DNA of 64,000 nucleotides, from the NCBI GenBank assembly GCA_019638285.1, contig JAHBUB010000002.1, forward strand, positions 62,001-126,000. The letters run 5' to 3'. The notes under the pieces are model-generated. The model saw nothing but the letters and a program-made list of their open reading frames with translations. It made no database searches and was not told the origin of the DNA. This DNA is from Cyclobacteriaceae bacterium. GTDB taxonomy: Bacteria > Bacteroidota > Bacteroidia > Cytophagales > Cyclobacteriaceae. Below, one piece after another: positions 17,619 to 59,180 of the stretch (its first letter is position 1; the number at the start of each line of letters is the position of its first letter). The position numbers were made by a program, and so were the translations under genes.

Positions 17619-18341
17619 TTATGCCAGACTTGAACGTATGACCAGTTGCCATCGAAATGCCCATTTCCACTGAAGGGAGTAGTTTTTAATCCCGGCTTCT
17701 TTTAATATGGATATTATATCGGATCTGTGAAATGACCGCAGCACAGAAACGGGAGCGTCAAATTGTACCATGGGGGATTTTGAAAACCATTTGGTGAGTA
17801 GCCGAATAGAATGATAGGCGAACCAATGTCGGTGAAGATCGTTAATCACAATCCCAATTCGGCTTTGTTTTACTATTGAGCTGATGAGTTGCGCTAACTC
17901 TTGATTGTTAAAATGATGTGTAAATAATGTGGCCACAATGATATCGTATTTAGTTTTCTGAAAGTCTTCAGAAAATACATTGTGTGTTTGATAGCTTATT
18001 TCCTTAAATGCTTTGGTATTGTTCTTTGAAAATTCAATGATGTTGGGGTTGGCATCAATGCCAGTCAGCATTAGATTAAGTTTTTGTTTTTTCCCCCACC
18101 AGGCAATTTCTTTTAGTATGTCGCCACCACCACAACCAATGTCAGCGATGGTGATTTTATTGCTGCCTTCGGTCTTTTCTAATGCTAATCTCTTTATTCC
18201 GCTTATGGTTACAGCATTTCCACCCAGCCATCTGTTAATGATCTCCAATTCCCTCAAAGTTTGATTCACCACTTCACCGGAGCATTGAAGGTCATCCATT
18301 ATTTCAACTGTTTCTGCGCGTTGAGAAAACCTTGTTGTCAT
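17619..18341 (-). CDS. SAM-dependent methyltransferase of the type III PKS cluster
   Basis: A 240-residue class I methyltransferase. Motif I is ITIADIGCGGGDILKE, the acidic ribose-binding residue is in LTGIDANPN, and YDIIVATLFTHHF is motif II/post-I. The gene starts 2 bp after the stop of the type III PKS gene on the same strand, so the two are almost certainly co-transcribed and this enzyme probably O- or C-methylates the polyketide product. That parallels the srsA-srsB logic of Streptomyces phenolic lipids (established for that system, inferred here). Confidence 0.8.
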   Translation of the reverse strand: MTTRFSQRAETVEIMDDLQCSGEVVNQTLRELEIINRWLGGNAVTISGIKRLALEKTEGSNKITIADIGCGGGDILKEIAWWGKKQKLNLMLTGIDANPNIIEFSKNNTKAFKEISYQTHNVFSEDFQKTKYDIIVATLFTHHFNNQELAQLISSIVKQSRIGIVINDLHRHWFAYHSIRLLTKWFSKSPMVQFDAPVSVLRSFHRSDIISILKEAGIKNYSLQWKWAFRWQLVIRSSLA

Positions 18342-18343
18342 AA

Positions 18344-19447
18344 TTAATTGTATTCAATCGATAGAATGAGGCTTTCAAAGGTAAGACCTGGGCCAAATCC
18401 AAAACTCAAAATCTTTTTATTATGATCTTGTGGAGAGAGTTGCTGATAAATCTCTTGTAAAACAAAGAGCACGGTAGGGGATGACATATTTCCATGCTTT
18501 TTCATTACTGAGTAAGAAAACCGGTTGTCAGACTTTTTCAGGCTGAGCTCACTTTCAACGGCCTCAAGAATTTTTTTACCTCCAGGATGTATGGCATAGT
18601 AATCAATGTCTGTCATTTTGATCTGATTGGCTACTAAAAGAGAAGCTGTTAAAATTTTTATTCCATGGCGAATTACCTCTGGCACATAAGTGGATAGTTT
18701 CATTTCAAACCCAAAGTCGCCAATAGACCACGCCATTTCATCAATACCACTAAGAGCAATATCACAAAAAGACTTTCCTACTTTTAAACTTTTGCTTTTT
18801 CTTGGTAATGACTCTAGCAATAAGGCTGCCGACCCATCTGCAAAAATTGCGTTGGCCAACTTGTTATCTTCTGTATTTTCTTTTTGAAAATGAATACTGC
18901 ATAATTCGGTACAAACAATTAAAACCTTTGCGTTTGAACTTTGTGAGCAAAATGAATCAGCAACACGAATGGCATTAAAGGCTGCATAGCACCCCATGAA
19001 ATTGATACTGGTTCGTTGAATTGTAGCGTTGAGGCGTAGTTCATTTACGAGTGCCAGATCTAAACCAGGAGCAAACATTCCTGTGCAGCTTACTACAATA
19101 AGGTGAGTGATTTCCTTGTTATTAAAATCATGAAGACCTTTCAAACAATTGAAGACGGCATCTTTGCTGATGTTAATCGCTTGGTGTTGGTATAATTCCA
19201 TCCTGGATTTGGTAGAAGGAAAGGGCTCGAAGTTTTTTGAATTGGGAAAAAATTTGTACAATTCAGGGTTTCCATAATCTTCTAAAACGGTATATCGGGT
19301 TTCAATCCCCGTAGCGCGATACAATACTTTGAGTTGTTGTGCTTCTTCACGATTAAGCTGCATGGCCTTTATCATAAAATCTGCAATCTGACTTTGCCTG
19401 AATTTATGAAGTGGATTTGAGGTACCAATAGAGGTGATGTAGCCCAT
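18344..19447 (-). CDS. Type III polyketide synthase (chalcone synthase-like)
   Basis: A 367-residue homodimeric ketosynthase that extends an acyl-CoA starter with malonyl-CoA and cyclises the chain to a pyrone, resorcinol or phloroglucinol. The full Cys-His-Asn triad is visible: Cys121 in VVSCTGMFAPG, His287 in YAIHPGGKKI and Asn320 in KKHGNMSSPT, plus the C-terminal GFGPGLT signature. The starter unit cannot be deduced; bacterial relatives often use long fatty acyl chains. The UbiA gene is divergent across 50 bp and the methyltransferase follows at 2 bp. Confidence 0.9.
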   Translation of the reverse strand: MGYITSIGTSNPLHKFRQSQIADFMIKAMQLNREEAQQLKVLYRATGIETRYTVLEDYGNPELYKFFPNSKNFEPFPSTKSRMELYQHQAINISKDAVFNCLKGLHDFNNKEITHLIVVSCTGMFAPGLDLALVNELRLNATIQRTSINFMGCYAAFNAIRVADSFCSQSSNAKVLIVCTELCSIHFQKENTEDNKLANAIFADGSAALLLESLPRKSKSLKVGKSFCDIALSGIDEMAWSIGDFGFEMKLSTYVPEVIRHGIKILTASLLVANQIKMTDIDYYAIHPGGKKILEAVESELSLKKSDNRFSYSVMKKHGNMSSPTVLFVLQEIYQQLSPQDHNKKILSFGFGPGLTFESLILSIEYN

Positions 19448-19497
19448 CTATCAATATAAACCAAAATAAACTAACTTAGTTGAAATAGTTTCCAAAT

Positions 19498-20397
19498 ATG
19501 TTTTCATTAAGCACCTGGCTTCACCTTCGTTTTCCCTTTTCCTTTTTTTTAATGCCCGTGTATTTTTTTGCTTTAGGCCACTCTCCTAACTTCACGGAAT
19601 CCAGAATTGTATGGTCCTTCTTAATTATTCACCTGCTGCTTTATCCAGCCAGCAATGGGTATAACAGCTATTTTGATAAAGATGAAAAAAGTATTGGTGG
19701 ACTGAAAAATCCACCCCCTGTAAAAAAGGGACTTTATTTTGTTTCGCTGATGATGGATATTGCAGCCATTCTATTGGCATTAAAAATAAGTGTTCTTTTT
19801 GCTTCGATGTTATTTATTTATGGTCTTGCATCAAAAGCCTATAGCCATCCTTCTATCAGGTTGAAGAAGATGCCTATTTTGGGTTGGCTAGTAACAGGAT
19901 TCTTTCAAGGTATTTTTACTTTTCTAATGTGTTATGAAGGTATTAATGCTTTTGGAATTTCTGGTTTATTAAAATCCGATATTTTGATTCCGGCTGCCTT
20001 AACGAGTATCATGCTATTGGGAAACTATCCTATGACTCAGATTTATCAGCATGAAGAAGACAGAAAAAGAGAAGACAAAACATTGAGTATTCTATTAGGA
20101 ATTAAGGGGACATTTATATTTACCGCCATAGTATTTGCCACAGCAACTTTGGGGTTTGTGTTATATTTTAAATTTTATTTTAATATTAAATACGCCATAA
20201 TTTTTGTGGCTTTTCTTGCCCCCGCTCTTCTCTATTTTTTCGTTTGGTTTACTCAATCTCAGAAAAATATTGCAGTTGTAAATTATTCACGAACAATGTG
20301 GCTCAATTTTATTTCGGCCCTTTCTCTCAACGGATTTTTCATTTATTTTTTCCTCGATTTCAGTCAGGTGATACAAGCTGTAAAAGCAGGATTTTAG
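19498..20397 (+). CDS. UbiA family prenyltransferase
   Basis: A 299-residue integral membrane protein with about eight to nine membrane helices. The first Asp-rich region is ASNGYNSYFDKDEKSIGG (NxxxD core) and the second is YQHEEDRKREDKTLS, positions that bind the Mg-diphosphate of a prenyl donor. It transfers an isoprenoid chain to an aromatic or similar acceptor. Placed between the type III PKS (divergent) and the FAD oxidoreductase (convergent, 1 bp), it probably prenylates the polyketide-derived ring. The donor could come from the prenyl diphosphate synthase at 58-59 kb; that is inference. Confidence 0.85.
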   Translation: MFSLSTWLHLRFPFSFFLMPVYFFALGHSPNFTESRIVWSFLIIHLLLYPASNGYNSYFDKDEKSIGGLKNPPPVKKGLYFVSLMMDIAAILLALKISVLFASMLFIYGLASKAYSHPSIRLKKMPILGWLVTGFFQGIFTFLMCYEGINAFGISGLLKSDILIPAALTSIMLLGNYPMTQIYQHEEDRKREDKTLSILLGIKGTFIFTAIVFATATLGFVLYFKFYFNIKYAIIFVAFLAPALLYFFVWFTQSQKNIAVVNYSRTMWLNFISALSLNGFFIYFFLDFSQVIQAVKAGF

Positions 20398-20398
20398 C

Positions 20399-21514
20399 TT
20401 ATGAGAATGGTTTTCCGTGTGATTTGGAGATAAGATGCTGAGCCAGCGGCTTAAAGTTTTGTGCCAATCCTACCGCCAGGTTGGAGGTGAAAGTAGATCC
20501 AAAGAGATGTTGCAATTGTCGGCCTACACGCAAACGTGCTGCAAATTGTTCTTGCCATTGTTTGGTGTAAGAGGATTCAAGTGTTTCTCTGGACGTGGAT
20601 TCGTTTTTACAATAGTGTACAATGTGACCTGAAAGAATTTTGGAAGAATGAATGGCCATGGCCATTCCATTGCCGCATAATGGAGTAATCATACCGGCAG
20701 CATCACCCGCCATAAGTATATGATTTTCTACTGGCCTTTTTGTCTCAAAGGAGATTTCATTGATTGTCTCAGGCGGGACGAAAACAAACTCAGCATTTTT
20801 AAAAATGTTCTTCAGAAAAGAATTCTTAAAAAGAATTTGCTCTTCCAGTGCCTGGATGCTTCCCGTCTCTTTAAGATTATCTCTGTGGCTCAGATAACAT
20901 AGGTTTGAAAGACCATTTTCAACATTGCTGATTCCGCAATAACCATCTTTAAAATTGTGTAAGGCAATGAGGTCATTAGCGTGTTCATTTCTTACATGAT
21001 ATTTCACCCCTATGTAGGGAGATCTTTTTTTTATAAAAGACCGATTCATTTTAATGTCTAATAAAGATCGTTTTCCATAAGATCCGACAGCAACATCGGA
21101 AGAAAACGATTTTTTATTTGTAGAAAGGGTAAACTGGTTTTCCTGAAAGTGAATTTTATTCACTTCTGCATTTTGATGAACCTCTACCCCCACCTTAATT
21201 GCTTTTTGACATAACCAATTGTCGAAGCTGTACCTACTGATGCCAAAGCCGCCCAGATCTAATGGTAGTGTAACCGATTTTCCATTGACTGAAGTGAGTT
21301 GAAACCTCTTTATTTGCGCTGGATGAAACTCTTCCGGATATAAATTCAGGGATTTTAGAAAGGGGATTGTTTCGTTAGAAATATATTCGCCACATACCCT
21401 ATGAAACGGATAAAGTCTTTTTTCAAAAAGCTGAACAGGAATATTTTCCCGCACCAGCTGAATGGATGTCAGTAGTCCTGAGAGCCCTCCCCCAATTATG
21501 GCGACTTTTTTCAA
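20399..21514 (-). CDS. FAD-dependent oxidoreductase (geranylgeranyl reductase/hydroxylase type)
   Basis: A 371-residue flavoprotein. The N-terminal Rossmann motif is VAIIGGGLSGLLTSIQL with Glu in LFEKR, followed by HRVCGEYIS, typical of the geranylgeranyl reductase-like branch. The second FAD motif is LMAGDAAGMITPLCGNGMAM. Such enzymes either reduce isoprenoid double bonds or hydroxylate aromatic rings. In this cluster either ring hydroxylation (toward a quinone) or saturation of the prenyl tail is possible. The gene is convergent with UbiA. Confidence 0.85.
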   Translation of the reverse strand: MKKVAIIGGGLSGLLTSIQLVRENIPVQLFEKRLYPFHRVCGEYISNETIPFLKSLNLYPEEFHPAQIKRFQLTSVNGKSVTLPLDLGGFGISRYSFDNWLCQKAIKVGVEVHQNAEVNKIHFQENQFTLSTNKKSFSSDVAVGSYGKRSLLDIKMNRSFIKKRSPYIGVKYHVRNEHANDLIALHNFKDGYCGISNVENGLSNLCYLSHRDNLKETGSIQALEEQILFKNSFLKNIFKNAEFVFVPPETINEISFETKRPVENHILMAGDAAGMITPLCGNGMAMAIHSSKILSGHIVHYCKNESTSRETLESSYTKQWQEQFAARLRVGRQLQHLFGSTFTSNLAVGLAQNFKPLAQHLISKSHGKPFS

Positions 21515-57653: not shown

Positions 57654-58212
57654 AAACCGGACGTCTTTTCAGAATTTCCCTGATCTCCGGAGGGCCTGTA
57701 AAATGATTGCCAATAAAGTCATCCAAGATACCAAGGCTTTTTGCGGATAACAGCTGCATGATTTCATCCTGAACTTCGCCACTAAGCGCGTAGGGAAATT
57801 GATTAATTGTCATGTTTGCGCCATTGCACATGGCGTAAATAGAATACTCAGCAGATTGATTTACATCACTTTCGTTAACGACACAATGATTAAGGAGCTT
57901 GTTAATATCTGGTAGGCCATCAAGTCTGGGATGCGTCTTATTTTTAAGGTGCTCCCTCATGTAGTTTTCAATACGATGGCGTGATTCTTCAGAAAGTTCC
58001 ATGTGCATTTTGCCAGCACATTCAAGGCACATGGCATATTCAAAAATGATTTCTTTGGTGCCCAGTGATGGATAGTTCTTAATTGCCTTCTCTACTACAT
58101 ATTGTTTATCAGCGAGCAGCTGATTACACATCATACAGGCTTGAAAAGGCTGATGGGTTTCTGAATTATAAAATTCTTCAGGTATGGGCAAGTCTGATTC
58201 AGTCCGGTTCAT
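57646..58212 (-). CDS. Cys-rich protein of unknown function
   Basis: A 188-residue cytoplasmic protein with two Cys pairs, ACMMCNQLL and AMCLECAGKM, about 37 residues apart, suggesting a zinc knuckle or ribbon. The rest is helical and acidic (MELSEESRHRIENYMREHL). A third Cys-containing region is NKLLNHCVVNES and IYAMCNGANM. No family recognised. Its start overlaps the stop of the prenyl diphosphate synthase gene by 1 bp, so they are co-expressed. Confidence 0.55.
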   Translation of the reverse strand: MNRTESDLPIPEEFYNSETHQPFQACMMCNQLLADKQYVVEKAIKNYPSLGTKEIIFEYAMCLECAGKMHMELSEESRHRIENYMREHLKNKTHPRLDGLPDINKLLNHCVVNESDVNQSAEYSIYAMCNGANMTINQFPYALSGEVQDEIMQLLSAKSLGILDDFIGNHFTGPPEIREILKRRPVFI

Positions 58213-59180
58213 TAAGAGATGCGATCGATCAAATTCAATGTATATTTTTTTAGTTCCTCCTTCTTTCTTTCGCTTACATTCAATTTATTGAGGCGTGATA
58301 GTCCGCGGTTAAAATAGAAATTTATCTTTTGTTCGGTGTGATCACTCACCCCTAAGTGATCATAAATTGCGGTGACAGCTTTTACTTTTTCTTCTTTATC
58401 AAATTGAGTGGAGGTAATTAATTTGTTGAGTTCACTTTTATTTTTACCATGCGCCTTGTCCAATGCGGTGATTAATAAGAATGTTTTTTTATTGGCAATG
58501 ATGTCTCCACCCACTTGCTTTCCAAATTTCTTCCCATCACCGAATACATCTAACCAGTCATCTTTCAATTGAAATCCGATACCAATGTCAACACCAAAAT
58601 CGCGAAGGGCTTTTTGATCTTTAGAAGGGGCATGTGCAAGGATTGCACCAAACTCTAGACTAAAGCCGAGTAACACTGCGGTTTTTTGTCGAATCATTTG
58701 AATATATTGTTCTTCCGAAACAGACTTCATTTTTTCAAATTCCATGTCCCATTGCTGCCCTTCACACACTTCTGCAGCGCACGCATTGAATTTTGAAAGC
58801 ACTTCTTTAAGCAACCCGTTCTCCACTTTTAATAATTGGTCATACACTTTTACCAACATAACATCACCTGCAAGTATAGCGGTATTGACATTCCATTTTT
58901 CGTGTACAGTTTTACTTCCTCTCCGAATTGGGGCATTGTCCATGATGTCGTCATGAAGCAAAGTAAAATTGTGAAAGGCCTCAATTGCAGTAGCCAGTGG
59001 TACAATGCGGCTGGCGTTTATTTTATATAGCGAATACGCAAGTAATGTTAACAATGGGCGCAGTCGCTTGCCTCCCAAACTCATGATGTATCTGATAGGA
59101 TCGTATAGTGTTGACGGGGCTGATCCGAATTTTTGATTTTTGATTTCAGCCTCAATCCATTGCAAATAGGTCTTGCTCAT
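58212..59180 (-). CDS. Polyprenyl (trans-isoprenyl) diphosphate synthase
   Basis: A 322-residue all-helical synthase that elongates isoprenyl diphosphates. The first Asp-rich motif is LLHDDIMDNAPIRRG and the second is FQLKDDWLDVFGD, both complete. GGKRLRPLL binds the diphosphate and VCEGQQWDMEFE is a typical mid motif. Product length (C15-C40) cannot be read reliably. It may feed the quinone pool or the UbiA of the type III PKS cluster at 19.5 kb (inference). It lies 16 bp after rnr on the same strand. Confidence 0.92.
   Translation of the reverse strand: MSKTYLQWIEAEIKNQKFGSAPSTLYDPIRYIMSLGGKRLRPLLTLLAYSLYKINASRIVPLATAIEAFHNFTLLHDDIMDNAPIRRGSKTVHEKWNVNTAILAGDVMLVKVYDQLLKVENGLLKEVLSKFNACAAEVCEGQQWDMEFEKMKSVSEEQYIQMIRQKTAVLLGFSLEFGAILAHAPSKDQKALRDFGVDIGIGFQLKDDWLDVFGDGKKFGKQVGGDIIANKKTFLLITALDKAHGKNKSELNKLITSTQFDKEEKVKAVTAIYDHLGVSDHTEQKINFYFNRGLSRLNKLNVSERKKEELKKYTLNLIDRIS

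Follow-up and report, generated by a model that had tools for sequence, protein, structure and literature searches.

A 64,000-nucleotide stretch of a Cyclobacteriaceae bacterium (GCA_019638285.1, contig JAHBUB010000002.1, positions 62,001 to 126,000; hereafter the window) carries four neighbouring genes, which encode a type III polyketide synthase (PKS), a class I S-adenosylmethionine methyltransferase (MT), a UbiA-family membrane prenyltransferase (UbiA) and a flavoprotein of the flavin adenine dinucleotide (FAD) type. We found that this gene set is co-inherited across the order and partly across the phylum, and the functional linkage of PKS and UbiA was shown. With a probability that we put at roughly 0.55, the four genes encode a dedicated membrane-lipid pathway in which an alkylresorcinol would be formed, prenylated by UbiA, methylated and likely hydroxylated on the ring. 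The set is laid out as follows:

17619..18341, minus strand: class I S-adenosylmethionine methyltransferase, 240 amino acids; passes the Pfam cut-offs of Methyltransf_31 and Methyltransf_25
18344..19447, minus strand: type III PKS, 367 amino acids; passes the Pfam cut-offs of Chal_sti_synt_N and Chal_sti_synt_C
19448..19497, no strand: PKS-UbiA intergenic gap, 50 bp between divergent starts; possible regulatory region
19498..20397, plus strand: UbiA-family membrane prenyltransferase, 299 amino acids; passes the Pfam cut-off of UbiA
20399..21514, minus strand: FAD flavoprotein, 371 amino acids, TTG start; passes the Pfam cut-off of FAD_binding_3

The first-pass annotation of this DNA had described four intact and closely packed enzymes, and this was borne out by the Pfam families, by open reading frames (ORFs) in all four genes and by intergenic gaps of 2, 50 and 1 bp. 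The closest flanking proteins had no Pfam match or were of an unrelated kind. The source assembly (3.98 Mb in 85 contigs) is 99.4% complete.

Co-inheritance across the order and the phylum

The order was sampled with 194 genomes (the named relatives being Cytophagales), and matches were accepted at E <= 1e-15 for PKS and UbiA, E <= 1e-20 for FAD and E <= 1e-12 for MT. PKS was matched in 142 genomes, UbiA in 143, FAD in 133 and MT in 124. PKS and UbiA were both present in 139 genomes, while PKS alone was found in 3, UbiA alone in 4 and neither in 48 (Fisher p = 6e-37). The first-pass annotation had staked its case on conservation of the neighbours in related genomes; the gene set is conserved together, with all four genes in 116 of the 194 genomes, or of the 147 that hold any of them. 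Since relatedness inflates co-occurrence counts, labels were shuffled within families, using the 165 genomes with a printed family and leaving out the remaining 29, which hold none of the four genes. Agreement with PKS was seen in 158 of these 165 genomes for UbiA, 152 for FAD and 143 for MT, and none of 5000 shuffles reached these values (the maximum for UbiA was 156).

Linkage alone does not explain the co-inheritance of PKS and UbiA. The two genes lie within 6 kb of each other in 64 of the 139 genomes that have both, and more than 20 kb apart or on separate contigs in 74, from 11 families; 15 of these 74 pairs share one contig, and separate contigs in draft assemblies could still be neighbours. 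The four genes are dispersed in many genomes, as might be expected if unrelated genes lay side by side in the window by chance. However, dispersed genes still co-occur: among the 49 genomes in which PKS stands alone within 6 kb, UbiA was found elsewhere in 48 and all three partners in 32. Chance adjacency is contradicted by this co-occurrence, by the shuffles and by a natural UbiA-PKS fusion (see below), and we regard it as highly improbable. In addition, 23 genomes with PKS and UbiA have an incomplete set (12 without a match to MT, 4 without FAD and 7 without both), where an absent match may also reflect divergence past the threshold or an incomplete genome; PKS and UbiA thus look like the core of the set.

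The same association was seen in a sample of 296 genomes of the phylum, of which 12 belong to the order. By hand count, UbiA (E <= 1e-12) occurred in 47 genomes, all of them within the 83 that hold PKS (E <= 1e-50), with a Fisher p of 3.6e-32 that is uncorrected for relatedness. One family of another class (f42) contributed 26 genomes whose UbiA is 27-36% identical to that of the window and never adjoins PKS; four of these UbiA proteins were checked, and they matched the window UbiA and none of the genome's other three UbiA proteins at E <= 1e-6.

One genome from the window's own genus (G144), given as 100% complete, lacked matches to all four genes. This is a concerted loss of the set and provides a natural comparison strain.

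Gene order and a natural UbiA-PKS fusion

For PKS, 80 named loci were kept, whose titles give either a Cytophagales group or no order at all (Bacteroidetes, Bacteroidia); the nearest relatives among them come from a Flammeovirgaceae metagenome-assembled genome (MAG; 86% identity) and a Cyclobacteriaceae MAG (83%). The order FAD> <UbiA PKS> MT> was found in 42 of the 80 loci and <UbiA PKS> MT> in 20, some of the latter ended by contig edges; the remainder were variants. In 60 selected loci of the G series, the commonest layout was a co-directional UbiA-PKS-MT-FAD operon (n = 13). The ORF caller missed PKS in 1 of the 80 named loci and in 4 of the 60 G loci. In the nearest named relative (L093, 6001-7101), the PKS is split into two ORFs, either by a frame break or by an assembly error in the MAG.

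The first-pass annotation had also suggested a central divergent promoter in the PKS-UbiA gap. The divergent arrangement itself recurs, with 85 divergent PKS/UbiA pairs among the fetched loci L033-L172 (partly redundant) and a median gap of 50 bp by the starts of the ORF caller. The promoter found no such support: a sigma-70 scan, whose model does not cover Bacteroidota promoters, gave no hit at 19448-19497 and 14 hits in total against a shuffle mean of 13.3.

Four genomes of one genus encode a single 652-amino-acid UbiA-PKS protein with no internal stop, and both Pfam domains were detected in the fusion protein of the one genome that was scanned. With 77-99% identity among the four fusion proteins, the fusion probably arose once. 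In a fifth genome of this genus, the UbiA and PKS genes directly abut. A candidate fusion in G436 was not counted, because the 686-residue open frame seen for UbiA in one search conflicts with a stop found directly before a 317-amino-acid ORF. The cluster neighbours in the five genomes of the fusion genus are a MerR regulator, an amine-oxidase-family protein (perhaps CrtI-like), phytoene synthase, a NUDIX protein and lycopene cyclase (Pfam scan of one genome), and these carotenoid-type neighbours give a modest hint at an isoprenoid context. Other recurrent neighbours in the fetched flanks are confined to single lineages, and a search there for a further conserved gene, such as an acyl-CoA ligase, a prenyl synthase or a transporter, found none that recurs across lineages. 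Taken together, distance-independent co-occurrence and the natural fusion lend good support to the proposal of the first-pass annotation that the genes act in a single pathway whose end product is a prenylated polyketide.

The PKS probably makes an alkylresorcinol

Alignment to PKS18, together with the row numbering, gave a catalytic triad of Cys153, His287 and Asn320 for the window PKS. The first-pass annotation had named the same histidine and asparagine and had taken Cys121 as the catalytic cysteine. Cys121 (in CTGMFAPG) is a separate conserved cysteine that aligns with Ser143 of PKS18; Cys153 (in NFMGCYA) aligns with PKS18 Cys175, given as the catalytic cysteine of that enzyme in excerpts from PMC6274091. 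The C, H and N of the triad were preserved in all 138 aligned PKS rows, among which there is some redundancy (L033 represents the window, and the pairs L034/L104 and L035/L115 each come from one contig). An assignment as DpgA (3,5-dihydroxyphenylacetyl-CoA synthase) was rejected, as the PKS scored 152 bits against an NCBIfam equivalog cut-off of 425.

To distinguish a resorcinol from a pyrone core, we considered Trp240, which is kept in 136 of the 138 rows and aligns with PKS18 Leu266. Excerpts from PMC6274091 count Leu266 among the residues lining the acyl tunnel and state that Trp281 in ArsB versus Gly284 in ArsC, together with ArsC Met293, toggles between resorcinol and pyrone. Met249 of the window PKS, placed like Trp240 at the cyclisation pocket, stands nine residues after Trp240, the spacing of Gly284 and Met293 in ArsC; this likeness is one of published residue numbers and spacing, and ArsC entries were absent among the matches listed (best 60 of 109, best 60 of 76, and 2 of 2).

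The PKS product could instead be an alpha-pyrone closed by lactonisation and then prenylated by UbiA. PKS18, a pyrone synthase, was with Steely1 the best PDB match among the matches listed (best 60 of 109; best 60 of 76), and PKS11, also a pyrone synthase, seems to share the Trp240 motif position (MGWD versus MAWS), so that Trp240 is no proof of a resorcinol. The spacing of Trp240 and Met249 argues against a pyrone, as do 34% identity and a common cassette with a PKS from planctomycetes, of a kind that yields alkylresorcinols, and the only two rows that lack Trp240 (L052 and L092) belong to a UbiA-less clade, grouped with a Stenotrophomonas PKS in a tree whose long branches and many open forks serve for rough grouping only. 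We consider a pyrone unlikely. Trp240 and the kinship with the alkylresorcinol cassette make us lean to a resorcinol core as the likely product, and the window PKS is probably an alkylresorcinol synthase.

In L052 and L092, an MT and an FAD flavoprotein 36-46% identical to those of the window stand beside this different PKS clade, in genomes without UbiA. These loci offer a natural contrast for product type.

UbiA forms a subfamily of its own

The window UbiA carries the motifs N56-S-Y-F-D60-K-D62 and Q184-H-E-E-D188. The genome's CyoE, MenA and PRK12872-type proteins are none of them close to it, and by sequence it is a subfamily of its own. Identity with MenA was rejected, since no MenA model matched at E <= 0.001 and the genome's MenA lies elsewhere (304 bits on TIGR00751), and identity with CyoE was rejected because the genome's CyoE also lies elsewhere. 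ChlG was among the best models for the window UbiA. In the plasmid collection, no match to UbiA was found at E <= 1e-6.

UbiA has Ser57 in 109 of 111 partly redundant rows and Gln184 in 110; MenA and the PRK12872-type protein of the genome carry Asp at these two positions. The replacement of one Asp in each metal-binding motif is unusual for aromatic prenyltransferases, and it makes the enzyme activity less than certain. UbiA might thus have another role, such as cyclisation or a scaffold function, and the product would then be a hierridin-like unprenylated phenol. Against this, N56, D60, D62 and D188 are each conserved in all but one of the 111 rows, and the genome's homologue of heme O synthase (CyoE), a family that transfers farnesyl, likewise lacks Asp at both aligned positions. 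Because of this homologue, a catalytically active UbiA is plausible, and we judge a UbiA that is not an aromatic prenyltransferase to be quite unlikely.

A polyprenyl diphosphate synthase gene lies elsewhere in the window (58212-59180, minus strand), outside the cluster, and is a possible source of the prenyl donor. It is one of two such genes in the genome, and its best models are of the short-chain or geranylgeranyl diphosphate type, at scores below their cut-offs.

The flavoprotein: probable ring hydroxylation, possible prenyl reduction

The best NCBIfam models of the window flavoprotein are geranylgeranyl (GG) reductases, namely TIGR02032 (GG-reductase superfamily) and BchP-ChlP. The flavoprotein could accordingly be GG-reductase-like and saturate the prenyl chain that UbiA attaches, in the way that ChlP acts with ChlG, to give a phytyl-type phenolic lipid. 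The presence of ChlG among the UbiA models would fit this, as would the VCGE and GDAAG motifs of the flavoprotein, which we take to be GG-reductase-like. However, the TIGR02032 score (81.9 bits) falls short of the subfamily cut-off of 158.8, and TIGR02032 was also the best model for flavoproteins in 5 of 6 UbiA-less cassettes (L052, 121 bits; Paludisphaera, 116; Paracoccus, 110; L092, 107; Psychrobacter, 49), 4 of the 5 scoring above the window's. As flavoproteins of cassettes without a nearby UbiA match it too, a prenyl substrate does not follow from membership of this superfamily, and the assignment as a GG reductase from the best model is weakened. Furthermore, in Deinococcus radiodurans and in L086, a genome of another class, PRK08244/UbiH-like monooxygenases (below the model cut-offs) hold the flavoprotein slot beside PKS and MT. 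We therefore prefer ring hydroxylation as the probable role of the flavoprotein, because the UbiA-less cassettes share its model or hold an aromatic-monooxygenase-like protein in its slot. Prenyl reduction is the main rival and appears rather doubtful.

Comparison with known cassettes

On plasmids of Psychrobacter, Deinococcus radiodurans, Paracoccus and Paludisphaera, PKS, MT and FAD were found together, and the neighbours listed there did not include UbiA. Two described systems, the planctomycete MT-FAD-PKS operon and the cyanobacterial hierridin cluster hidABC, resemble the window in combining a type III PKS, a class I methyltransferase and an FAD oxidoreductase. In the excerpted text of PMC10896814, the planctomycete PKSs (upon expression) and HidC yield alkylresorcinols, C-methylation is the probable activity of one planctomycete MT, and the paper leaves open what the planctomycete flavoprotein does. 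Parts of PMC8086630 attribute the hierridins to a PKS, a methyltransferase and an oxidoreductase and report a hierridin-like cluster with a prenyltransferase from Raphidiopsis; the likeness to cyanobacterial hierridin clusters is by description, from the papers. Paludisphaera, the only cassette of the planctomycete/hierridin kind compared by sequence, has the PKS at 34% identity and an MT and FAD with the same best NCBIfam models as those of the window, although its MT and FAD are only distantly similar to the window's (22-24% identity; FAD 24%). The described planctomycete operon has three genes and no UbiA, whereas the window set has a co-inherited UbiA and so does not match the three-gene composition. 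We did not class the window set as of the hierridin kind, because its composition differs and two of its enzymes fall below the model cut-offs.

A cassette on an Antarctic plasmid of Psychrobacter urativorans (L173, 5989-8812) has a PKS that is 45% identical to that of the window. In the tree this PKS falls among sequences of Bacteroidota, which suggests gene transfer into Gammaproteobacteria.

The first-pass annotation had compared the set with Streptomyces srsABC, which makes phenolic lipids with a PKS, a methyltransferase and a flavin hydroxylase and is not known to include a UbiA. By composition, srsABC is like the window in these three enzyme types and differs in UbiA. At the level of sequence, the planctomycete MT-FAD-PKS cassette is a relative. 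The BpsA/BpsB-type alkylpyrone pair also joins a type III PKS with a methyltransferase; in the Stenotrophomonas record, whose PKS-methyltransferase pair is presumably akin to BpsAB, the methyltransferase is of the isoprenylcysteine type, whereas that of the window is of class I. In plants, cannabinoids are made by a type III PKS that supplies a fatty-acyl resorcinol core, which a UbiA enzyme then prenylates. The window set shares this order of polyketide resorcinol and prenylation, a likeness in logic with no homology claimed; it differs in being bacterial, in having no dedicated cyclase gene among its recurrent neighbours, and in having a methyltransferase and a flavoprotein in addition. The set would thus work like an alkylresorcinol cassette plus a cannabinoid-like prenylation, with the prenyltransferase as the addition.

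Proposed pathway and its meaning

The first-pass annotation had sketched an aromatic or pyrone core that is methylated, prenylated and hydroxylated or reduced; this chemistry, with the site of methylation and the length of the prenyl chain, we infer from the sequences, which lean to a resorcinol core. The PKS would extend a long-chain fatty-acyl starter with three malonyl-CoA and close the chain by aldol cyclisation to a 5-alkylresorcinol. UbiA would attach an isoprenoid chain from the cellular polyprenyl diphosphate pool to the resorcinol ring, which is probably handed straight from PKS to UbiA, as the natural fusion suggests. The MT would methylate either a ring carbon or a ring oxygen. The flavoprotein would most likely add a ring hydroxyl, as cassettes with an aromatic-monooxygenase-like protein in its slot suggest, to give a methylated, prenylated alkyl-hydroquinone.

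Several observations weigh against this pathway, besides the Trp of PKS11, Ser57 and Gln184 of UbiA, the GG-reductase models and the open role of the planctomycete flavoprotein given above. The best NCBIfam model for the MT, PRK06202, scored 150 bits, below its cut-off of 243; cassette MTs elsewhere scored 232 (Paludisphaera, also below the cut-off) and 335 (Deinococcus). One genome of the order (G151) has PKS at 44% identity without UbiA and is a true exception, and two others (G029 and G059) carry MT, FAD and a distant PKS (about 30% identity) with no UbiA match. In the phylum sample, 36 of the 83 PKS-bearing genomes lack UbiA at E <= 1e-12, and the Psychrobacter plasmid holds its PKS with FAD and MT and with no UbiA among the listed plasmid neighbours.

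The known part of the system is the PKS-MT-flavoprotein alkylresorcinol cassette, and the new part is the added, co-inherited UbiA prenyltransferase. No publication on the four-gene set in Bacteroidota was among the literature matches listed, in a search whose coverage excludes most subscription journals and preprints. The wide, mostly single-copy and often dispersed conservation of the genes looks more like that of a membrane component than of a strain-specific antibiotic. We tentatively propose that they may make a widespread membrane lipid class of Cytophagales and their relatives, a two-tailed (fatty alkyl and isoprenoid) methylated hydroquinone or quinone produced by a cannabinoid-like PKS-UbiA pair, or by one bifunctional enzyme in one genus, which would have a structural or redox function alongside menaquinone. 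If this is true, most sampled genomes of the order (139 of 194 with PKS and UbiA) encode the synthesis of a prenylated phenolic lipid that has yet to be described. In that case, the fusion of UbiA and PKS would be an enzyme in which resorcinol synthesis is already coupled to prenylation, and it may be useful for meroterpenoid or cannabinoid-type chemistry.

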